37,463 bases of DNA from Erysipelotrichaceae bacterium. Lineage in GTDB: Bacteria > Bacillota_I > Bacilli_A > Erysipelotrichales > Erysipelotrichaceae. The stretch covers positions 1 to 37,463 of the forward strand of contig WSYG01000014.1 of NCBI GenBank assembly GCA_009773735.1, written 5' to 3'. Below are positions 5,558 through 25,899 of the stretch, in pieces. How positions within the stretch are numbered: position 1 is the stretch's first letter; every line of letters starts with the position of its first letter. The notes beneath the pieces were generated by a model. That model had not been told where the DNA came from. It ran no database searches and was given only the letters and a program-made list of their open reading frames with translations. A program made the position numbers and the translations under genes.

Positions 5558-6448
5558 TTATTTGCCAAACGTTTGATTCATGACTTCTTCGGCGAAATTA
5601 TCTTCTCTTTTTTCGATGCCTTCACCGACTTGATAACGGACAAAACTTAATACTTCAGTTTTGGCAGCTTCGAGTACTTTTTGAACTTTGATGTCTTGAT
5701 CTCTAAAGAATAATTGATCGACCAAGCTGGTTTCTTGTAACACTTTGCTCAGTTTGCCTTCTAAGATCCCATTGAGAACATTCTCAGGTTTGGAACCCAT
5801 GATCGGGTCATTTTTAATGAGAACTTTAAGAATGTTGCGTTCGTGTTCAATGAATTCAACTGGCATATGTTTACGTGAAATATAACCCGGATTCATAGAT
5901 GCAACTTGCATTGCCATGTCTTTTCCAACTTCAGCGTCTTCTGTGCTTTTTAACTTAACGATGACTGAAATCTTTCCACCCATATGGATGTAGGATCCAA
6001 ATACTTCATCATCAGCTTTAGATAGAATCTCAAAACGTCTGAGTGTGATCTTTTCACCAATGGTAAATGTTGCTTCTGCAACATGCTCAGATACAGCTTT
6101 ACCGTCAATTACTAAAGTCAATGCTTCATCCAATGATTTAACATTAGAATTAACCAAAGCATTAGATAGGTTATCTAACAATGCTAAGAATTGTTCGTTT
6201 TTAGCAACGAAATCTGTTTCAGAATTGACTTCGATGACAATGGCACGATTACCAGAAACAACTGCTTTTGTTAAGCCTTCAGCAGCAATACGATCTGCCT
6301 TTTTAGCAGCTTTCGCAATGCCTTTTTCTCTTAACCAATCGATGGCTTTATTCAATTCACCATTGGTTTCTTCGAGAGCTTTTTTACAATCCATCATCCC
6401 TGCGCCTGTTTTATCGCGCAGTTCTTTTACTTGACTTGCTGTAACCAT
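5558..6448 (-). CDS. tsf: Elongation factor Ts
   Basis: EF-Ts is the guanine-nucleotide exchange factor that recharges EF-Tu. The N-terminal UBA-like domain has the signature LRDKTGAGMMDCKKAL, and the core has VIEVNSETDFVAKNEQF (the Asp/Phe that contacts EF-Tu) and GGKISVIVKL. At 296 aa it is normal for Bacillota. The ATG at 6448 begins 3 bases after the rpsB stop, with GGAAGG upstream inside the rpsB end. It is co-transcribed with rpsB, the conserved pair across bacteria. Confidence 0.97.
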   Translation of the reverse strand: MVTASQVKELRDKTGAGMMDCKKALEETNGELNKAIDWLREKGIAKAAKKADRIAAEGLTKAVVSGNRAIVIEVNSETDFVAKNEQFLALLDNLSNALVNSNVKSLDEALTLVIDGKAVSEHVAEATFTIGEKITLRRFEILSKADDEVFGSYIHMGGKISVIVKLKSTEDAEVGKDMAMQVASMNPGYISRKHMPVEFIEHERNILKVLIKNDPIMGSKPENVLNGILEGKLSKVLQETSLVDQLFFRDQDIKVQKVLEAAKTEVLSFVRYQVGEGIEKREDNFAEEVMNQTFGK

Positions 6449-6451
6449 GGA

Positions 6452-7552
6452 TTACTCGCCTTCCTTAACTTCAGTTTTCTTTGCTCTCGGCTTTTTTGCA
6501 ACAGCTTCTTGTGTTACTTCAGCAGCTTTAGGTGCAACAACTTTAACTGCTTCAACTTTCTTAACTACTTCAACAGGCTTGACAACTTCAACAGGTTTTG
6601 CTGCTTCAACTGGTTTTGGTGTTTCTACTGCTTTAGATGGTTCTGATCTAACGAAAGGTTTTGAATCAGAACGACCTTGATAAGTATCATTGGTACGTGG
6701 ACGACGGTCGAAAGGTCTATGTGTAGAACGTTCTTCACGGGCTCTTCTTTCTTCCATTTTCGCTCTTCTACGACGTTCATTTTCTTCATTGACTTGTTCA
6801 ACATTAATGATAACATCGCTCATAGAAATGTCTTTTACGAGATCTTGTTCCTGGAAAGCATAAGATAATATGCCGCTTTTTGTTTCAACGATCGCATCTG
6901 CCATGATGCTGACAATTAGTTTGATTGAACGAATCGCATCATCATTAGCCGGAATGCCATAATCAACAGCTTCTGGATCACAATTAGTATCAGTAAACCC
7001 AAATACTGGGATGCCTAATTTTTTAGCTTCTGCAACAGCATTGTAATCTTCAGTCGGATCGACCACAAATATGGCATCCGGCAGTTTTTTCATTTCTTTG
7101 ATTCCACCGAAGAAATTTTCCAAACGAGCCGCTTCTTTGCGAATATTGGCAACTTCCTTCTTAGGGTAAACATTGATGGTTCCACTGGCTTCCATATCTT
7201 CGATTTCCTGCAAGCGTTTGATACGTTTCTGCATGGTTCTAAAATTGGTCAGCAGTCCACCCAACCAACGTTGGTTGATGTAGAATGATCCACTTCTTAA
7301 TGCTTCTTCCATGACGATGGCTTGAGCTTGTTTCTTTGTTCCAACAAACAAAACTTTACCATTCTTTTCGGCCAAAGCCTTCATTGCAGCATACGCATCA
7401 TCCAATTTTCCTAGAGTTTTCTCTAAATTAATGATGTATACACCATTCTTAGCCGCGTAAATAAACGGCTTCATTTTTGGATTCCATTTCTTGGTCTGAT
7501 GACCGTAATGGGATCCATGTTCTAATAACTTCTTCATCGATACGACAGACAT
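6452..7552 (-). CDS. rpsB: Ribosomal protein S2 with long C-terminal extension
   Basis: This is a 30S subunit protein. The core is ordinary: [30 protein letters not shown] and [19 protein letters not shown]. The chosen ATG at 7552 follows GAGGAA and matches the normal S2 start; the frame is open a further 10 codons upstream without homology. The protein is 366 aa, against about 230-260 for most S2. From about residue 255 there is an Arg/Glu-rich helix ([20 protein letters not shown]), then a Pro/Val/Glu/Lys low-complexity tail with repeated KPVEVV-like units and a basic patch (AKKPRAKK). The tail stays in frame up to tsf, so it is not a read-through artefact. Its role is unknown. Confidence 0.96.
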
Positions 7553-7657
7553 GGTATTCCTCGCTTTCCGTTTGTCCTCCATCAGTTCTGCTCGCGATAA
7601 CTCATTTCTGAGACGGAATCGCGAATCCCTGATGTGTGATGTGCATCTTTAGATGCC
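7553..7657 (-). promoter_or_regulatory. Structured rpsB leader RNA, possible S2 autoregulatory site
   Basis: The roughly 105-nt 5' leader folds into nested stems: CATCAG with CTGATG (outer, 7629-7634 with 7580-7585), TCGCGAT with ATCGCGA (7618-7624 with 7592-7598, perfect 7 bp) and CTCA with TGAG at the tip. A separate small hairpin GCATCT/AGATGC lies nearer the transcription start. A GGAGG sits just after the outer stem, upstream of the real rpsB ribosome binding site. Ribosomal-protein operons are often repressed by their product through such leaders; that S2 binds here is inference. Confidence 0.55.
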
Positions 7658-7664
7658 GTTATAT

Positions 7665-7693
7665 AGTATACCAAAGGCTCAACTTTGTTTCAA
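7665..7693 (-). promoter_or_regulatory. Promoter of the rpsB-tsf-pyrH-frr-uppS-cdsA-rseP operon
   Basis: On the minus strand TTGAAA (7688-7693) and TATACT (7665-7670) are separated by exactly 17 bases, near-consensus for the housekeeping sigma factor. The -35 box overlaps the xerC stop codon, so the operon has its own promoter in the tail of the preceding gene. Confidence 0.8.
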
Positions 7694-8607
7694 GTTGTTT
7701 TTATGGGCAGTTTAGCTCTTGGATGAGCCTTTAAATAGGAATCTTTTAGACGATCTAGTGTAACATGTGTATAAATCTGAGTTGTAGATATATTCTCATG
7801 ACCTAATAGTTCTTGGACCAAGCGTAAATCAGCGCCATTGTCGAGTAAATGAGTCGCAAAAGAGTGTCTAAGCATATGCGGATGAACAGAACGGTTTATC
7901 CCAGCTCTTTTTGAACATTGATCCAAAAGATATTCTATGCCTCGAGGTGTGAATCCTTCGCCTTGTTGATTGATGAAGACTCGATGATGAAGTTTACCTT
8001 TCATTAAGATTGGTCTGACTTCATTAAGATATTGTCTCAAGATATCGCCACAATCTGAATAGAATGGGACCATTCTCTCTTTAGAACCCTTACCGATAAA
8101 ACGAAGCGTTCTTTGTTCAAGATCGATATCTTGAATGGTCAATGCAGCTGCTTCACTGACACGTAATCCACTGGCATAAATCAATTCAAACATGGCTCTG
8201 TTTCTGAATTGATAAGGTTCCGTCAAATCAAAAGATTCAAGAAGTTGATTCAATTCTTCAAAAAGCAGAAAATCAGGTAAGAGTTTCTGTTTGGATGGAT
8301 TATGGATCGAACTTAAAGGATTATGATTGACTTTATTTTGTTGAGCCAAATAATTAAAGAATGATCTTAAACTTGAAATCTTGCGCGAAATCGTAGAATT
8401 CTTAAGTCCGCCTTTTGAGTGTTTATTAAGGTATTCTATAAAACGCATGATGGTTTTTGAATCGACCCCTTGCCAAAATGTAACCCCTTGATTGATCAAG
8501 AAAAAGTGAAATTCTTCAAGATCACGGCGATAAGCATCCCGTGTATGAACGGACTTCGTATTAATAGTGTGGATATAATTTAGAAAATCAAGGATGTCTT
8601 GTGTCAT
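7690..8607 (-). CDS. xerC: Tyrosine recombinase XerC
   Basis: This is a site-specific recombinase that resolves chromosome dimers at dif. Of 305 aa, the N-terminal ~90 form the SAM-like core-binding domain and the rest the catalytic domain. All active-site residues are visible: Arg149 (ASGLRVSE), Lys173, His244 and Arg247 ([14 protein letters not shown]), His270 ([11 protein letters not shown]) and the nucleophile Tyr279. The ATG overlaps the trmFO TGA as ATGA. The trmFO-xerC neighbourhood matches B. subtilis codV, hence XerC rather than XerD. The hslV-hslU-codY genes that follow it in Bacillus are absent; rpsB comes next. Confidence 0.93.
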
Positions 8608-9908
8608 AGTTGTGTTTTGAATTGCCTTATTTGATTCAAAGCTTCTTCTGCAATGCGCTCTTTTCTGTCTTTTAAGCGAGGACTTAAATCACTAGGAATC
8701 AATCCGAAATTTGCATTCATAGGCTGAAAAGTTTCTGGATCAGCATGAGTAATGTAGTAAGCCATAGAACCCAAGACAGTTTCACGAGGGCACTGAAGTA
8801 GGTTTTGACCTAAAGCCAACCGACTTGCATTGATTCCTGCCAGATAACCACTTGCGGTAGATTCAACATACCCTTCTACACCTGTCATTTGTCCCGCAAA
8901 GAACCAAAGAGGATTCGTTTTACATTGATAGGTCGGCTCTAAAAGCTTAGGTGCTTTAAGATAAGTGTTGCGATGCATGACGCCATATCGGGCAATTTCT
9001 GCGTTTTGTAAACCTGGAATCAAATGAATGATTCGTTTTTGTTCAGGCCATGTCAAGTGAGTTTGAAATCCAACGATGTTATAGAGACTATCCGCTGCAT
9101 CATCTCGTCTTAATTGTACTACAGCAGCAGATCTTTTATGTTCTTTCGAAATTTCAAGACCAACAGGTTTCATTGGACCATACTGTAATGTCTGTTTACC
9201 TCGTTTGGCCATGACTTCAAAAGGCATACATCCTTCGAAATAAATTTCCTTTTCAAACGCCTTTGGAACAACGACTTCTGCACTGATCAAAGCATCGTAG
9301 AATCGATCAAATTCTTCTGTGGTCATAGGACAATTGATGTAGTCTTTCCCATCACCTTTATCATAACGCGATTTATAGTAAGCAACTGAAAAATCGATAC
9401 TGTCTTTTACGATGATGGGGGCAGCTGCATCATAGAAATAAAGCGAGTCTTCGTTAAAGATCGATTTTAAGGATTCTGCCAAAGCACCATCTGTTAAAGG
9501 GCCTGTCGCAAAAACACAGATCCCCGCTTTGGGAGCTGTGACGATTTCATCATGGACCTCAATTAAGGGATGATTCCTAATTTTATCAGTGATTGTTTTT
9601 GAGAACGAATGACGATCCACAGCCAAAGCACCACCAGCAGGTACTTTTGTCGCATCAGCCGCCTCTAGGATCAAAGATCCCAAAATTCGTAATTCTTCTT
9701 TTAAAATACCAACCGCATTGGTTAGATTATCGCTTCTTAATGAATTTGAACATACCAATTCAGCGAAATCGTCAAGATGATGGGCTTCTGATTTTTTAAT
9801 GGCTTTCATTTCAAAAAGATGTACTTTAACACCTCTTTGAGCGATTTGCCATGCTGCTTCACAACCGGCTAAGCCGGCACCAATCACATTAACTTCCGCT
9901 TTCATCAT
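8604..9908 (-). CDS. trmFO: tRNA (uracil-54-C5) methyltransferase, folate-dependent
   Basis: TrmFO makes ribothymidine at position 54 of the tRNA T-loop using methylenetetrahydrofolate and FADH2. The N-terminal FAD site is [18 protein letters not shown], followed by the family-specific [15 protein letters not shown] and the C-terminal [20 protein letters not shown]. At 434 aa it is the normal length. The start overlaps the end of topA by 20 bases; a second ATG at 9905 is equally possible. No strong ribosome binding site is visible, so translation is probably coupled to topA. The topA-trmFO-xerC order is conserved in Bacilli. Confidence 0.96.
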
Positions 9909-12036
9909 TCATTTTGGCTGAACTTTCTTTCTTCTCCCTTGGTTTGATGTATTTGCATTTTGGATAATTACCACAGGATACAAAGGGTCCAAAACGACCT
10001 TTGCGAGTCACCAGATCACCTCCACAAACAGGACATTTTTCGCCTGTTGCAACAGGTTCACTTTTAACCTTAGTCTCACTAAAGATGTATTTGCAAGTAG
10101 GATAATCACTACAAGACACAAAGGGACCAAAACGACCAATGCGCTTAACCAGAGGTTTTCCGCATGTAGGACATGCATCTCCCGTCAATTCTACCTCTTT
10201 CTTATCGTTTTCAGACTTCTCGATAAACTTACAGGTTGGATAATCACTGCACGCTGTAAAGTCTCCAAAACGTCCTTTACGAACGACGAGTTCATGACCG
10301 CATTGAGGACATATTCTTCCAGTTTTAGTCGGCTGGATTTTCTCCATATTATCATTGGCTTGTTTCAATAGTTGATCAAACGTATCATAAAACGATGTCA
10401 AAGCCTCAAGTTGGTTTAGTTTCCCATCAGCGATCTGATCTAATTGAGCTTCTAATTTAGCCGTATACTCAACATTGATCAATTCGGAGAAATGTTCACC
10501 AAGTTTTGAATCTGTTAATAATCCTTGTTCAGTTGGGAAAAAGTATTTTACCTTTGAAGTTTCGGTCTTTTCTAAAGTAACATATGCCCTTTCAACGATC
10601 GTATCGACGATTGTTGCATAGGTTGAGGGTCTTCCAATCCCATTTTCTTCCATGACTTCGATCAATTTAGCTTCTGTGTAACGAGATGGAGGATTGGTAA
10701 AAGACTGTTTGCCTTCAATCCCAAGACTCACCAATCTTTCTTCCAGAGATAATTTAGGCAACATCTTATCTTGACGTTGTTCATATTTGCCAAGTACTTT
10801 ATAGAAACCATCAAATTCGACTTTTGATCCTTTAGCACTGAAATCATAGTCTCCTTGAGTCAAAAGAACAGTCATGTTTTTTATCTTAGGGGCACTCATC
10901 AACGATGCCAAAGTACGCGCATAAATCAACGCATACAGCTTATAAGCATCTTCACTCAAAGTATCTTTAACAGATTCTGGGGTGACATGAATATGTGTAG
11001 GACGGATCGCTTCATGCGCATCTTGCGAATTGTCTTCGTTTTTGACTTTATAGGATCCCACATAAGCTTTCCCATAGGTCTTCTCAATATGGTCTCGGGT
11101 TGAGTGGACAAACTGTTCACTCAAACGCGTAGAATCGGTTCTCATATATGTGATAAGACCTTCTTGAGCATCTTTTTGAGCACTTCCATCATAAAGCTTT
11201 TGAGCGACATTCATGGTTTTCTTTGCTGAAAAGAAGAGTTTGTTGGCCGCATCTTGTTGAAGCGTAGATGTGATATACGGGTAACGATGCTCGCTTTTCC
11301 CATCTTTTTCTTCAATTGACGTTACTGTAAATTCTGGTCTAAGTTGGGCTAAAACTTCATCCGTTTCAGCTTTTGTTTTTACTTTAAAGGACTTTCCTTT
11401 GAATCTGGAAAGTTCAGCTTCAAATTCAATTTCATCTTTTTTGAATTTTGTTGTAACAGCCCATTTCTCAACTGGCACAAAATTCTTGATTTCATTTTCA
11501 CGCTCAACGATCAATTTTAAAGCGACAGATTGGACCCGTCCAGCTGAGCGACTCTTGATTTTAGCTTGTAATAGTTTAGATAATTTAAAACCTAAGATAC
11601 GATCCAATATGCGTCTTGCTTCTTGAGATCGAACCATATCCATATCGACATGTCTAGGATGATTGAAAGCTTCAAGCACAGCTGTCTTGGTGATTTCATT
11701 AAATACGACGCGTTGGGTTTTATCTAAATCAAGACCCAATTCATCCGCTAAATGCCAAGATATGGCTTCACCTTCACGATCGGGGTCAGTTGCTAAATAA
11801 ACGGTATCTGCCGATTTGATTTTTGCTTTTAATGATTTAACAACGTCAGATTTATCGTCACTCACAACATAGGAAGGTTTAAAGTTTGCCGCAATGTCGA
11901 CACCCAATCCCCCTTTACCCGTGGTCGCTAAATCTCTAATGTGACCTTTGGAAGAGACCACATCAAAGTCAGATCCTAAATATTTCATGATCGTTTTTGA
12001 TTTCGATGGGGATTCTACAATAACCAGATTTTTCAT
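9889..12036 (-). CDS. topA: DNA topoisomerase I
   Basis: This is a type IA topoisomerase that relaxes negative supercoils by passing strands through a single-strand break. Of 715 aa, the TOPRIM domain is at the start (Glu8 in VESPSK, the acidic DPDREGE at 84-90), the catalytic Tyr297 is in [10 protein letters not shown], and there are three C-terminal C4 zinc ribbons (CPQCG...C.....C, CPTCG..., CPVCG...), each followed by GRFG. The ATG at 12036 follows AAAAGGAG. It sits between dprA and trmFO as in Bacillus. Confidence 0.97.
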
Positions 12037-12089
12037 AAGAACTCCTTTTCTTATTTACAATGAGACAAAAACTTGCGCTTGTCAATTGA

Positions 12090-12824
12090 TTAAATACACA
12101 AAACATCTTCTAGGCTTAAAATCATATTCGCACCCTGTTGGATTAATAAGTTACATCCTTGACCCTCTTGAGCATCTAAATCATAAGGAATCGAATAAAT
12201 TTCTTTACCGATATCCAATGCTTCTCTTACGGTTATCATAGATCCACTTTTATAATCTGCCTGCATCACAACAACTGCTTTTCCTAAAGCGGCAACGATT
12301 CGATTACGTTGAGGAAAACGATGTTTCAAAGGTAATGTTTCACTAGGATATTCAGATAAGATCAATCCTTCTTCTTCGATCTGATGATACAGAACCTTAT
12401 TCTCTATGGGATAGATTCTATGGATCCCACAACCCAGTACTGCGATTGTCGTGTTGTGTTTTAAAGCACAAACATGAGCCAAAGCATCAATTCCTTTGGC
12501 TAAGCCACTGATGATCACATAGCGTTGCGATAGCAATTCTACCACATTTTTAGTCCATCTTGTCGCATAATCTTTAGGCAACCGACTTCCTACAACACTT
12601 ATGCCCTTGTGTTTCAATAGTTCTAGGTTCCCTTTATAGTAAAGCACATAAGGCGGTTCTAAGAGGTTTTTTAATCCTTCAGGATAACAGTCATCCAAGA
12701 TCGTAAAAGCTTTTGGCGAGTCTAAAATAGGCTCATAGGGCTCATTTCGCATCAGTGCCAGTTTGATTCTAGAATACTCACCTTCATATTTAACACTATA
12801 CGCCAATAATTGATGGTTGTTCAC
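12090..12824 (-). CDS. dprA: DNA processing protein DprA (Smf), short form
   Basis: DprA loads RecA on incoming single-stranded DNA during natural transformation. The Rossmann-like core is clear: YYKGNLELL, ISVVGSRLPKDYA, ISGLAKGIDALAH, VLGCGIHRIYPIEN, LILSEYPSETLPLKHRFPQRNRIVAALGKAVVV and SGSMITVREALDIGKEI. At 244 aa it lacks the C-terminal winged-helix domain of longer DprA proteins and has only a short N-terminal part. It starts with GTG at 12824; an in-frame stop lies just upstream, and no good ribosome binding site is seen. Whether this organism is competent cannot be judged from the window. Confidence 0.9.
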   Translation of the reverse strand: MNNHQLLAYSVKYEGEYSRIKLALMRNEPYEPILDSPKAFTILDDCYPEGLKNLLEPPYVLYYKGNLELLKHKGISVVGSRLPKDYATRWTKNVVELLSQRYVIISGLAKGIDALAHVCALKHNTTIAVLGCGIHRIYPIENKVLYHQIEEEGLILSEYPSETLPLKHRFPQRNRIVAALGKAVVVMQADYKSGSMITVREALDIGKEIYSIPYDLDAQEGQGCNLLIQQGANMILSLEDVLCI

Positions 12825-12844
12825 ACTGACTGATATGCATCACA

Positions 12845-13456
12845 TTATAAATCTCCGTCAAAAAATGTCTTTCTTTTTAATTTCGCTACAGGTTCATAAC
12901 TTAAACGATGAATGGGTGTGATTCCATACGTGTTCAAAGCTTCGATATGAGCTTTGGTTGGATAACCTTTGTGTTGTTTAAAGCCATAGTTTGGATACAT
13001 TTGATCATAGTTGACCATGATCGCATCACGACATACTTTGGCGATGATACTGGCTGCAGCAATACTGATGCTTCTACTATCGCCCTTTATATAATCATAA
13101 ACTGGTATCCGTTGATGAGAAATGGGCATGGCATCGGTCAAACAAACATCCGCATTGGCCAATTGGATCAAATGAATGTTGGCATCTTTTGTAGCTTGAT
13201 AGATGTTTCTTCGATCGATCGTTTCAGGCAAAACTTCAATGACTCCAACCCATAAAGCAGATAAAACGATATCCTTAAAACATGCATTTCTTTGTTTTTC
13301 ACTTAATTTTTTTGAATCATTGATCAAAGGATGACTAAATCCCTTAGGTAAGATCACTCCCGCTACCACACAAGGCCCAGCTAAAGGTCCCCGACCCGCT
13401 TCATCGATGCCCAATATCCGTTTAAATTTATTAAAGTCAGCTTCAAGCCAAGCCAT
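12845..13456 (-). CDS. rnhB: Ribonuclease HII
   Basis: RNase HII cuts RNA in RNA/DNA hybrids and removes misincorporated ribonucleotides. The metal-binding residues are seen in GIDEAGRGPLAGP (Asp18, Glu19), LTDAM (Asp108) and KVCRDAIM (Asp134), and HKGYPTKAH is the conserved C-terminal motif. At 203 aa it is slightly shorter than the Bacillus protein, which has an extra N-terminal domain. The start overlaps the rbgA stop as TAATG, suggesting coupled translation. Confidence 0.96.
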   Translation of the reverse strand: MAWLEADFNKFKRILGIDEAGRGPLAGPCVVAGVILPKGFSHPLINDSKKLSEKQRNACFKDIVLSALWVGVIEVLPETIDRRNIYQATKDANIHLIQLANADVCLTDAMPISHQRIPVYDYIKGDSRSISIAAASIIAKVCRDAIMVNYDQMYPNYGFKQHKGYPTKAHIEALNTYGITPIHRLSYEPVAKLKRKTFFDGDL

Positions 13457-14283
13457 TATTCAAAACTCATCGGGCCTAAATCTCCCTGTCTAAGTTCGCG
13501 CAAAAATGTCACCATCGCATCATTCAGTTTATATTCACCGTTTTGAACATATCCTCTATTTTTAGCTATGGTCTCTAAAAGTTCTGTTTTATCTTTTCCG
13601 CGATATCCATATCTAGCCAATAACACATGGGGATAATTCACCATGAGAAAATCAAAGGCCGCATCAAACAATTCTTCAGTCGGCAAAACTTTTTCTGCGA
13701 TCGAGCCGCTGAGCGCTAATTTCATCGCCACATCTTTATCTTCAAAACGGCCCCATAATAGACCTGGTGTATCTAAAATATCCAGTTGAGGATGAACATT
13801 GGCCCATTTTAAAGCCATGGTCACCCCAGGTTTATTGGCCACTGTCATTAGTTTCTTCTTAGCCAATTGATTGATCAAGGTCGATTTTCCCACATTAGGA
13901 ATACCTAACACCATGGCTTTGACGGCTCGGGGTTGAATACCGCGTGCTTTCCATCTGGAAAACTTAGGCTCCATGACCTTTAGTACCCCTTCTACGATAA
14001 GTTTTCGGGTATCATCTTTCAATAGATTTAATGCGATGACCACAGTATTATCAGCCGATAAGCTTTTGACCCATTGGGTGGTCTTTTGGGGATCTGACAT
14101 ATCTTTCTTGGTTAAAACAATCAATCTTGGCTTGTCTTTGCTGAGTTGATCAATTAAAGGATTACGTGATGAAAGCGGTAAACGACTGTCTCTGAGTTCG
14201 ATGATGCAATCCACCATCCCTAAGCGAGCTTCTATTTCTCGCTTGGCTTTGGTCATATGACCAGGAAACCAATGAATGCTCAT
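13456..14283 (-). CDS. rbgA: Ribosome biogenesis GTPase RbgA (YlqF)
   Basis: This is a circularly permuted GTPase needed for late assembly of the 50S subunit. The motif order is permuted as expected: G4 TKKD (58-61), then the P-loop GIPNVGKST (127-135), then DTPG (171-174). The N-terminal IHWFPGHMTKAKREI is the family signature. The ATG at 14283 overlaps the lepB stop as TAATG and gives 275 aa; an in-frame start at 14301 would only add residues translated from the lepB end. It is followed directly by rnhB, as in B. subtilis. Confidence 0.95.
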   Translation of the reverse strand: MSIHWFPGHMTKAKREIEARLGMVDCIIELRDSRLPLSSRNPLIDQLSKDKPRLIVLTKKDMSDPQKTTQWVKSLSADNTVVIALNLLKDDTRKLIVEGVLKVMEPKFSRWKARGIQPRAVKAMVLGIPNVGKSTLINQLAKKKLMTVANKPGVTMALKWANVHPQLDILDTPGLLWGRFEDKDVAMKLALSGSIAEKVLPTEELFDAAFDFLMVNYPHVLLARYGYRGKDKTELLETIAKNRGYVQNGEYKLNDAMVTFLRELRQGDLGPMSFE

Positions 14284-14879
14284 TATGGTCCAGTGATCCA
14301 TCTAAAATGACTCAAAGGATAGAAAATATAGATGTCCTTACTTCGAATCAATTCGATTTTTAATGGTCCAAATATCCTAGAATCGGTTGAACCACCAGTT
14401 CGGCGATTGTCCCCCATCACAAAAACCTCATCGGCTTTCACAAAGACCGGTCCAAAGTTTGCGGTAAAAGGTTCGCCTGATTTAACCCAATCATCTCTGT
14501 ATTTGGTATTTAAATAAGGTTCTTCAATGGCTTGACCATTGATGTAGATGATGTCATCTTTACATTCGACCATATCACCTGGTAAACCAATGGCTCTTTT
14601 AATCAGGTAATCTTCAATAGGTGGATAATAAATGATGACGATGTCGCCGCGTTCGATACCTTCACTTCGATAACTTAACAGATTTGAGAATCCATAATCC
14701 AGATCGTGCAAAGTAGGATACATACTGCTCCCCTCGACATGGATCGGATAAGCTATAAAGTTGGTCAATACTAAAACTAAGATATAACTGATCACGATGC
14801 TCGTGAACAAATCATATACAAGTGTGTTTTTATCTCTGAAGTCTTTGAGTTTAAGTTTGATGTTGTTTAAGGTGTTCAT
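14283..14879 (-). CDS. lepB: Signal peptidase I
   Basis: This enzyme cleaves signal peptides of exported proteins at the outer face of the membrane. One membrane segment (about 22-42) precedes the catalytic domain; the nucleophile is Ser52 in EGSSMYPTL and the general base Lys94 in YLIKRAIGLPGD, with GDNR..STDSR near the end. From the ATG at 14879 the protein has 198 aa, a usual length for Gram-positive SipS-like enzymes. The frame is open six more codons upstream. It follows the rplS terminator, with a TATAAT near 14898-14903 that may give it a separate promoter. Confidence 0.93.
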   Translation of the reverse strand: MNTLNNIKLKLKDFRDKNTLVYDLFTSIVISYILVLVLTNFIAYPIHVEGSSMYPTLHDLDYGFSNLLSYRSEGIERGDIVIIYYPPIEDYLIKRAIGLPGDMVECKDDIIYINGQAIEEPYLNTKYRDDWVKSGEPFTANFGPVFVKADEVFVMGDNRRTGGSTDSRIFGPLKIELIRSKDIYIFYPLSHFRWITGP

Positions 14880-23490: not shown

Positions 23491-23579
23491 ATGAAGTTTA
23501 AAAACCATCTCGTTTGAGTAACGGCTTCCGTTTTGAGGTGCTTTTTGACATATTCGCAACCCATTTAGCATAATAGTTA

Positions 23580-23723
23580 GCACGAATTCATGCACATGAA
23601 AATATCCATTAATAAAAAGGTATGAAGTGTTATATCTAGAAATTAGCATATAGATTAGCAGTTCAATTAATAGGGGTTAAATTTGTGGAATAATTCTATT
23701 CCACAGATAATCTCTGTTTTTTT
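23580..23723 (+). ncRNA. Candidate small RNA inside the element
   Basis: TTGACA (23545-23550) and CATAAT (23569-23574), 18 bases apart, could start a plus-strand transcript near 23580. About 140 nt on lie GTGGAAT/ATTCCAC (23684-23703) and ACAGA/TCTGT followed by seven T (to 23723), a plausible terminator. No coding frame of note lies between. This is a structural guess without homology. Confidence 0.3.
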
Positions 23724-23828
23724 ATGTGCGAATTGCATTGCGATTTGATGTGCGATTTCATTTTCTGTTTAGCGTTCATTCCTTTAATTAAGGCTGTGTT
23801 TTAAAGTAATGTTGATAAATAGATATTT

Positions 23829-23854
23829 AAAAGGGATTCATCAGAATCCCTTTT
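23829..23854 (-). terminator. Terminator of the flavin-reductase-like gene
   Basis: AAAAGGGATTC and GAATCCCTTTT form a perfect 11-bp stem with a 4-base loop, about 100 bases after the stop codon at 23956. The stem ends are A/T runs on both strands, so it may work in both directions. Confidence 0.75.
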
Positions 23855-23955
23855 GTTACGCAATGTAGAAAAGATACGACATAACTACCTCTAAATTTAT
23901 ATTACCTAAGTTCTACTAATTGGAATTGGCCTAACTTTATACTATACTCATTATT

Positions 23956-24606
23956 TTAGTATTCGCCCATATCTTTATGCTTTTTCAATATTGCTATCCA
24001 ATCGTGTGATTTGCCCTCAAAATTTTCTGGATTTATAGGATAATGTATATTGTAAAGGTATCCCTTTTCACCATATCTTCCTTGAATGATTTCATCCAAA
24101 TGCACTTCATCTACACAAACATTAACAACTTCTAAGCACATTAAAACGTGGGTATCTCCATCTTTTATCTCACGTTCCCACAGATAGCAACATTCTAGAT
24201 TAAGAAAACATTCTTTGATACGTGGTGCATTTATACTCGTTGCTTGTTCTGTAGTAAGTCCCGATAATGTTATTTCATCATTATCGAATCCATTGTTAGC
24301 AATTGTTGCTGTGCATTTATCGTAAATAGCAGCTGAAGGAAAGTTCAGCACTACTTCCCCTTTTTCCTTTATAGTTTGATACATGTGTCCAGATTTGTTT
24401 ACACTTGAGAGAATTGCATAAAAGCCATGATGGTTACCATTAAAACATGCCCATGATTGTAGACAAGCATTAGGCTTTCCATTAGATTTGTAGGAAGTTA
24501 CAACAAATAGTGGTGATGGTATTGCAGTTACAAAATCCATCCACGAAAAACCATAAGTTTCCATATCTTTCATCGACTTTGGTAAAGTTGAGTATTCTAT
24601 TTTCAT
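23956..24606 (-). CDS. Flavin reductase-like FMN-binding protein (element cargo)
   Basis: This 216-aa protein of the flavin reductase / split-barrel FMN-binding family shows TAIPSPLFVVTSYKSNGKPNACLQSW near the start, LSSVNKSGHMYQTIKEKGEVVLNFPS, and a C-terminal region with the ECCYLWEREI and LEVVNVCVDE strands typical of the fold. Members bind FMN and reduce flavins, or act on unknown substrates; the exact reaction cannot be given. The ATG at 24606 is preceded by CAGGATGG. It lies alone inside the inverted-repeat element, has its own promoter with a dyad and its own terminator, and is flanked by AT-rich spacer unlike the tightly packed neighbours, which suggests recent arrival. Confidence 0.8.
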   Translation of the reverse strand: MKIEYSTLPKSMKDMETYGFSWMDFVTAIPSPLFVVTSYKSNGKPNACLQSWACFNGNHHGFYAILSSVNKSGHMYQTIKEKGEVVLNFPSAAIYDKCTATIANNGFDNDEITLSGLTTEQATSINAPRIKECFLNLECCYLWEREIKDGDTHVLMCLEVVNVCVDEVHLDEIIQGRYGEKGYLYNIHYPINPENFEGKSHDWIAILKKHKDMGEY

Positions 24607-24705
24607 TAAATTTTACCATCCTGTTTTTAAATCATCATCACAACAAATTACTATTTATTGAGTTGTCTTACATCCTTCATATGTCGCATTTTGCTACAAT
24701 TGCGT

Positions 24706-24744
24706 ACCAGTTTTACTATACAAAAACAGGTATTCTGGTCTTAA
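24706..24744 (-). promoter_or_regulatory. Promoter and dyad operator of the flavin-reductase-like gene
   Basis: On the minus strand TTAAGA (24739-24744) and TATAGT (24715-24720), 18 bases apart, form a plausible promoter. ACCTGTTTT and AAAACTGGT (24723-24731 and 24706-24714) are inverted repeats with one mismatch that flank the -10 box, as a repressor operator would. The leader to the ATG is about 100 nt. No regulator gene is in the element. Confidence 0.4.
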
Positions 24745-24902
24745 AATCTGTAATTTTTGTATATGCATGTGGAACACAACTTTGAACGATGAAGTTCTTG
24801 ATTAGTATGACTGCAACTCTGTGTGCTGATACTTTAGATAAATCATAAGCGATTTTTATGCTATGCACCTTAAAACGGAAGCCGTTACTCGTTTGAGATG
24901 GT

Positions 24903-25394
24903 TTATTCTAATGTAAAGTCGAAGTATTCTTTAACTTGTTTGGTTGAAGCATCTTTCCAAGAAACCACCATCTTAAGATGAATTGGTCTCATGTTTGAGA
25001 TTCCGTTGAGCACAAATCCTTGAACATAGTTTGTTGGTTTATTGATCTGATTCGGAATCATATAATACGTCTTGTCTTCAAAGATCCCAACACTGGGCAT
25101 CATGGTTTCACTGATGACCAGCGAACCATCATCATGGATCAGCAAGATCTCAACATCATACATCGCTACTTGTGGACGATCGATGATGACATCATATCGA
25201 TAAGTTTGATTCCCAAGATCGGTTACTGAATAATCAATATAGAAGTAGAAAGAAGAAGTTTTTAAATCTTTCGCATTCAAAACATCTGTATACAGTGTTT
25301 TGTAGGATTCAAATTTCAGTCGTTCTTGTTGGGCAGCATTGGTACAGCCGCTCATCATCACTAAACTGAGGAATAAAACGATGATCTTTTTCAT
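24903..25394 (-). CDS. Small predicted lipoprotein, function unknown
   Basis: A 163-aa exported lipoprotein: MKKIIVLFLSLVMMSGC is a type II signal peptide with lipid-attachment Cys17. The mature part is beta-rich, with no family I recognise. The ATG at 25394 is preceded by no Shine-Dalgarno sequence; an alternative ATG is at 25400. TGCTATAAT lies exactly six bases upstream of the chosen ATG, so transcription would start on the A of the start codon. Its terminator has been split by the insertion that starts 13 bases beyond the stop codon. Confidence 0.8.
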   Translation of the reverse strand: MKKIIVLFLSLVMMSGCTNAAQQERLKFESYKTLYTDVLNAKDLKTSSFYFYIDYSVTDLGNQTYRYDVIIDRPQVAMYDVEILLIHDDGSLVISETMMPSVGIFEDKTYYMIPNQINKPTNYVQGFVLNGISNMRPIHLKMVVSWKDASTKQVKEYFDFTLE

Positions 25395-25400
25395 ACTCAT

Positions 25401-25409
25401 ATTATAGCA
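25401..25409 (-). promoter_or_regulatory. Extended -10 promoter giving a leaderless lipoprotein mRNA
   Basis: TGCTATAAT on the minus strand is a perfect extended -10. Six bases separate it from the ATG at 25394, which puts the predicted transcription start on the start codon. There is no clear -35 and no ribosome binding site. Confidence 0.5.
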
Positions 25410-25413
25410 CAGG

Positions 25414-25899
25414 CTATTTTGCTTTACGGTTCTTGAGAAGTTCAGAGAGTTTGTCTCCAACGCTTACAGGAACACTGTGTGTTTTACCATCCAACATCGC
25501 AATACTAACCATACGACGTGTTGCAGGGCTAACCGCACGAATGCTTTTGATTCTAAAATCTTGACCGGAATATACGACAGTTTTTTCAAAGACATGAACA
25601 AATTCAACGGTTTGGACATTGACCCATTCAGAAAAAGTCATGATCGCAAAAACCCCGATATACGTAAGACCTTGAAATAGATCAGGATTGAAGAATGCCA
25701 TGATCACAAAAGCTAAAGTTGCAGCCGCAAATAAATAAAGTGCAACACGAGTTCCATTTAATTTGAATTTCTCAACCAGCGTATCTTTCTGAGTCACTTC
25801 ACCCAGAATTGTTTTAAACTTGCGATAATCTTTGATTCTCATAAATAAGACGAACCCCGCAACAACTACGGTCAATAAACTGACGATCTGATCTGTCAT
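25414..25899 (-). CDS. Membrane protein of unknown function
   Basis: A 161-aa protein with three predicted membrane segments (about 6-20, 52-70, 74-90) and a soluble C-terminal half of about 70 residues that is beta-rich (VEFVHVFEKTVVYSGQDFRIKSIRAV). A basic loop lies between the first two segments. I do not recognise the family. The ATG at 25899 begins one base after the tyrS stop, with AAAGGGG as ribosome binding site inside tyrS, so it is co-transcribed with tyrS and should share its T-box control. Confidence 0.75.
   Translation of the reverse strand: MTDQIVSLLTVVVAGFVLFMRIKDYRKFKTILGEVTQKDTLVEKFKLNGTRVALYLFAAATLAFVIMAFFNPDLFQGLTYIGVFAIMTFSEWVNVQTVEFVHVFEKTVVYSGQDFRIKSIRAVSPATRRMVSIAMLDGKTHSVPVSVGDKLSELLKNRKAK

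Follow-up and report, generated by a model that had tools for sequence, protein, structure and literature searches.

A flavin-reductase-like gene in a transposase-less insertion cassette at a terminator hairpin of an Erysipelotrichaceae bacterium

The stretch of DNA analysed here, referred to as the window, comprises 37,463 nucleotides of contig WSYG01000014.1 from an Erysipelotrichaceae bacterium (assembly GCA_009773735.1). Within it, the terminator of a gene for a lipoprotein-like protein is interrupted by an element with terminal inverted repeats (TIRs) and flanking target-site duplications (TSDs), the features of which are compiled in Table 1. The sole gene of the element, designated the cargo, encodes a flavin-reductase-like protein that matches PF01613 (E=3e-16) and, in the PDB, the flavoredoxin 2d5m (E=7e-9). 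A transposase was present neither as an open reading frame nor as a domain match nor as a decayed transposase frame of the element, according to the ORF list, a domain search and a six-frame translation of the non-coding parts; the description given in a first-pass annotation, one flavin-reductase-like gene and no transposase, was thus borne out. The GC content of the element is 33%, compared to 39% for the window.

Table 1 Features of the element and its insertion site (coordinates of the window)
Feature	Coordinates	Strand	Remarks
Target terminator stem, left half	23502..23511	.	AAACCATCTC; inverted arms; joined site folds into 10-bp stem and 4-nt loop
Left target-site duplication	23509..23518	.	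CTCGTTTGAG; 3 stem + 4 loop + 3 stem bases; exact direct repeat; boundary from L012
Whole element (mobile insertion cassette)	23519..24887	.	1369 bp; limits where homology to L012 copy begins and ends
Left terminal inverted repeat	23519..23541	+	TAACGGCTTCCGTTTTGAGGTGC; 23 bp; inverted-repeat search, core count, L012 alignment
Strong promoter-like site	23545..23574	+	TTGACA-18-CATAAT; 11/12 sigma-70-like match; inward-pointing, no ORF behind
Candidate cargo terminator	23829..23854	.	Perfect hairpin, 11-bp stem, 4-nt loop, GC-poor; downstream of cargo
Cargo gene	23956..24606	-	216 aa; flavin-reductase-like (split-barrel, flavoredoxin-like); PF01613, PDB 2d5m
15-bp match	24635..24649	.	CAAATTACTATTTAT; identical to part of C. 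zeae gene-separating repeat
Right terminal inverted repeat	24865..24887	-	One mismatch relative to left; inverted-repeat search
Right target-site duplication	24888..24897	.	CTCGTTTGAG; exact copy of 23509-23518; boundary from L012
Target terminator stem, right half	24895..24904	.	GAGATGGTTT; overlaps lipoprotein stop codon
Lipoprotein-like gene	24903..25460	-	Terminator interrupted by element; ORF list, gene order of relatives

The inverted arms visible at the locus are 40 bp long (23502-23541 and 24865-24904), and their division into element and target became clear by comparison with a second copy, which was found by a search with the cargo protein on a 3.36-kb contig (L012) of Erysipelotrichaceae bacterium UBA6182, a member of the same bacterial family and a different genus (G223). 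The two copies share 88% identity over the full length, and in the pairwise alignment their homology is confined to TAA[C/T]G...CGTTA, with flanks that differ completely outside; since the homology stops at TAA[C/T]G, the limits of the element were set at 23519 and 24887. The TIRs, TAACGGCTTCCGTTTTRAGGTGC, are conserved in the L012 copy, and the 15-bp TIR core, AACGGCTTCCGTTTT, occurs twice in the window, in inverted orientation, at an expectation of 0.00 as determined by shuffling. The inverted repeats initially described as 26 bp long are therefore real but shorter, and the reported 4-bp duplication GTTT proved wrong, stem bases having been assigned to the TIR. The duplication is a 10-bp palindrome (CTC-GTTT-GAG) which contains not only the four loop bases believed to have been duplicated, but also three stem pairs on each side.

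Removal of the element together with one duplication restores a perfect hairpin with a 10-bp stem and a 4-nt loop (-13.3 kcal/mol as RNA) right at the stop codon of the lipoprotein gene, so that the earlier proposal of two stem halves outside the element which rebuild a terminator was confirmed by folding of the joined site. Two congeners (G033, G247) have the rpsD gene next to the lipoprotein gene and lack the element, and they carry an intact hairpin of different sequence, e.g. AACATCACCTTGAGTGATGTT in L006, at the orthologous place; a sequence identical to the site before insertion was not recovered. An empty site, which had been suggested as a decisive check, is thus available in relatives, and because of the intact orthologous hairpins the event is best described as an insertion, in the lineage of the window, at a position already occupied by a terminator. 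The coding sequences of the neighbours remained whole, as previously stated, but the terminator itself is split, and for this reason the insertion cannot be regarded as neutral for the adjacent transcription unit. As the neighbouring genes are convergent at both insertion loci, the cargo necessarily shares its direction with one of the two, and its orientation is uninformative.

The insertion locus of the L012 copy is unrelated to that of the window. Its TSD comprises 9 bp (GCCTTGTGC, palindromic GC-CTTGT-GC, flanked by AAAAATGAA and TTCATTTTT) and is centred on a hairpin with an 11-bp stem and a 5-nt loop, from which it takes 2+5+2 bases, just as the 10-bp TSD of the window is centred on its hairpin with 3+4+3 bases. 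The cassette is known from these two copies only, and because the L012 copy likewise sits in an unrelated hairpin loop, homing amounts to more than one coincidence. The previous suggestion of a non-autonomous cargo element at the tip of a terminator hairpin was supported by this second copy with its equal placement. The TSDs of 10 and 9 bp, the two unrelated loci and the element-free relatives indicate at the sequence level that the element is mobile. That it represents an immobile ancestral insertion or a chance arrangement is highly improbable: in its favour, the host draft genome contains a single copy of the cassette (only two occurrences of the 26-bp end pattern), but the known copies occupy unrelated loci in two genera and differ in their duplications, congeners have element-free sites and the TIR expectation is 0.00, all of which argues against it, and the second copy refutes a chance arrangement.

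The cargo protein is 91% identical to that of the L012 copy, 90% to a homologue of Anaerocolumna sedimenticola and 89% to one of Clostridium zeae, values which point to horizontal acquisition and spread of the gene, and a dN/dS of about 0.16 between the two cassette copies indicates its maintenance under purifying selection. The clostridial homologues in donor-type genomes are without the TIRs of the element. The window has the 15-bp sequence CAAATTACTATTTAT upstream of the cargo, and the identity of this sequence to part of the C. zeae repeat (Table 1) hints at a clostridial donor from which the cargo may have been picked up. In C. zeae itself (L254, G978:C4:316000-335999), at least eight repeats of about 50 bp in the same orientation (..CAAATTACTATTTATACTACTCAACTTAAATTGGAATTTA..) are located between small genes at positions 6064-14650, an arrangement which resembles the cassette arrays of integrons, here in a clostridium, and has the cargo homologue inside.

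Expression signals within the element are less clear than the first-pass annotation assumed. A promoter of its own could not be assigned to the cargo, since the sole strong sigma-70-like site (23545-23574) lies on the plus strand, opposite to the cargo; the promoter scan overall gave no excess (7 found vs 8.1 in shuffles). Both hexamers of this site are conserved in the alignment with the L012 copy, and it might be a relic of the promoter of a lost transposase gene or the start of a non-coding transcript. The hairpin at 23829-23854 could serve as the proposed cargo terminator, but it is GC-poor, partly decayed in L012 and absent from the list of the consensus terminator scan. An Rfam search gave no credible match.

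An autonomous insertion sequence (IS) with the same ends, a search for which had been proposed, was sought in the genome, order, family, class and donor genomes and was not found. None was detected in the host draft genome, where drafts may lose collapsed IS copies, nor with up to three mismatches in 245 genomes of the order, with a relaxed TIR pattern in 244 genomes of the family, or in 395 genomes of the class and in genomes of the cargo-donor type; one exact TIR pattern gave zero matches over a collection of 84,980 genomes. The relaxed search in the family yielded 29 matches in 27 genomes, among which an inverted partner end was present only in L012, and the others were taken as chance. Plasmids and phages contained no DNA match to the element, and cargo protein matches on plasmids were below 60% identity. 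A 17-bp viral match (L003), which falls into a GC-rich coding sequence of a phage, was attributed to chance. Of the weak internal DNA matches, L052-L054 were inspected and set aside, and L055 was judged from its score to be chance.

Because no autonomous IS with the ends of the element was available, the anatomy of insertion was compared instead, for which elements of the IS4 type (NF033592) were retrieved from the family and the phylum. Autonomous elements with TIR and exact TSD numbered 51 (41 in the family and 10 outside), and the TSD is 9 or 10 bp long in all of them. A strong dyad is present at 27 of the 51 target sites vs 5.8% of random control sites in the same loci, and in 21 of these 27 cases the dyad deviates by no more than half a base from the TSD centre, compared to about 21% of control dyads. 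The flanks are A-rich on the left and T-rich on the right, which is the signature of bidirectional terminators, and one element (L168) has a duplication, CTCTTTTGAG, almost identical to that of the window. About half of the sites are not hairpins, elements of G122 lying mostly outside hairpins, and part of the dyad enrichment could be due to selection against insertion in genes, terminators being intergenic. Palindromic duplications of 9-10 bp in terminator-like hairpins are exemplified by L060, L068, L085, L092, L112, L158, L165 and L168. These data suggest that terminators act as safe harbours for the IS4-type elements of these bacteria.

For the IS4 subgroup, ends of the pattern -AATR--------WTW and direct repeats of 10-13 bp have been published (PMC2266710), and mobile insertion cassettes (MICs) such as MIC231 have been described for the IS4 family (cited in PMC2266710). 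The ends of the element (TAATG/TAACG...TTT) agree with this pattern at positions 2, 3, 5 and 14-16 in all four cases, whereas three of the four have C at position 4, against the pattern, and the fit is suggestive rather than proof. The TSDs of 10 and 9 bp correspond to about one helix turn, one copy falling just under the published range, and the similarity of the TIR to local IS4-type ends (CAATGTCATTAAGTTAAG) is weak, with about 8 of 18 positions identical.

We consider it fairly probable that the element represents a mobile insertion cassette moved in trans by a terminator-hairpin-targeting DDE transposase of the IS4 type; since the searches yielded no autonomous partner with the same ends, the IS4 type of the missing transposase is inferred. 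Such a transposase, encoded elsewhere, would bind the TIRs and excise the cassette, which would then be joined across a staggered cut of 9-10 bp that straddles the loop, with the dyad of the terminator at its centre, and gap repair would yield the palindromic duplication; either hairpin extrusion or a bent or palindromic sequence may be recognized. Transcription of the lipoprotein gene could continue through the split terminator into the co-directional cargo and would end at the 11-bp hairpin (23829-23854). Going further, we tentatively propose that a lineage of transposase-less IS4-type cargo cassettes homes to terminators by hairpin geometry, with a stagger of 9 or 10 bp that keeps the cut symmetric to odd or even loops, and moves metabolic genes between unrelated gut bacteria to sites at which the cargo can be expressed by read-through from the gene upstream.

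Local IS1182-type elements (PF13751) were compared as multi-copy sets from the same family, the boundaries of which were set by alignment between copies. A group with the end sequence AAGAGGCTGTAACGAA has no duplication, its TIR lying between an A-tract and a T-tract as in the stem-replacing IS1272. In some groups a TSD is absent and the bases AAGAGGCTG are conserved outside TAACG, and some show other short duplications. Elements with GGCTGTAACG/GGCTGTGACA ends (L208-L216 in G010; L221-L226) likewise have no duplication, and their TIR often has an A-tract on one side and a T-tract on the other, as though it had taken the place of a terminator stem. Elements with CAGACTGTTGACAAA ends (L191; L227-L230 in G105; L241 and L243 in G161) duplicate the complete terminator hairpin, and therefore the length of their duplication follows that of the hairpin.

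It is unlikely, in view of this comparison, that the cassette belongs to the IS1182 family and was inserted by a transposase with stem-loops as its target and with duplication of the loop region (pathway c in the model of PMC5678879), although elements of the IS1182 type abound in this bacterial family, where they are located in or at terminators, TAACGA is contained in the TIR of one group, and TAACG, the first five bases of the element, occurs in one IS1182-type TIR (CTGTAACGAA). IS1272 deletes or replaces the stem-loop and TnSha1 deletes it, in both cases without a TSD (PMC5678879, PMC4923244), whereas the cassette kept both stem halves and has a TSD of 9-10 bp, and a dyad-centred duplication of this length was found in no local IS1182 group. 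IS1182 as the best fit, and with it the original lead to IS1182/IS1272, was therefore rejected; in addition, DDE_Tnp_1_6 (PF13751) has no match in the host draft genome, and the element matches no transposase domain.

Duplications of 8-10 bp are made by several IS families, and the partner IS of the cassette was not found in the genomes of the family, class or donors. Another DDE or otherwise unclassified transposase with 9-10-bp duplications could be responsible, the hairpins then reflecting a general preference for palindromic or intergenic sites; we regard this as improbable, as the exact dyad centring at both cassette sites recurs in the local IS4-type elements.

MICs and terminator-targeting ISs are each already known. 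With MIC231 and the other MICs of IS231 (IS4 family, Bacillus cereus group), the element retained by our preferred reading, a cassette mobilized by an IS4-type transposase, has in common IS-type ends, a passenger gene, the lack of a transposase, a presumed mobilization in trans and duplications of similar size (about 10-12 bp). The element differs in its target, a terminator hairpin, and in that its partner IS was not found; moreover, ends of the IS231 subgroup begin with CAT, unlike those of the element, and the passenger is a different one. IS4 itself prefers the target AAAN20TTT, and a DDE transposase with a YREK motif is characteristic of the IS4 family. The likeness to IS4 and its subgroup consists in the partial -AATR...WTW ends, the duplication of one helix turn and the local members in terminator hairpins, the difference in the lack of a transposase gene, the C at position 4 of three ends and duplications of 9-10 instead of 10-13 bp. 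IS1272 and TnSha1 share the terminator stem-loop targets, and TnSha1 also carries a metabolic passenger (sh-fabI), but both possess a transposase of their own and lose the stem-loop at the target. MITEs are transposase-less with TIRs and TSD as well, but they are much shorter and non-coding, whereas the element comprises 1369 bp with a conserved gene under purifying selection. A cargo carrier that homes to terminators leaves coding sequences untouched, and its cargo could come to be transcribed by read-through. The combination of a MIC with terminator targeting and, at two unrelated sites, a duplication centred on the dyad seems to be undescribed in the open-access literature; it offers a clean two-site case of a duplication centred on the hairpin dyad and joins two phenomena usually described apart, transposase-less passenger cassettes and transposons that target terminator hairpins.
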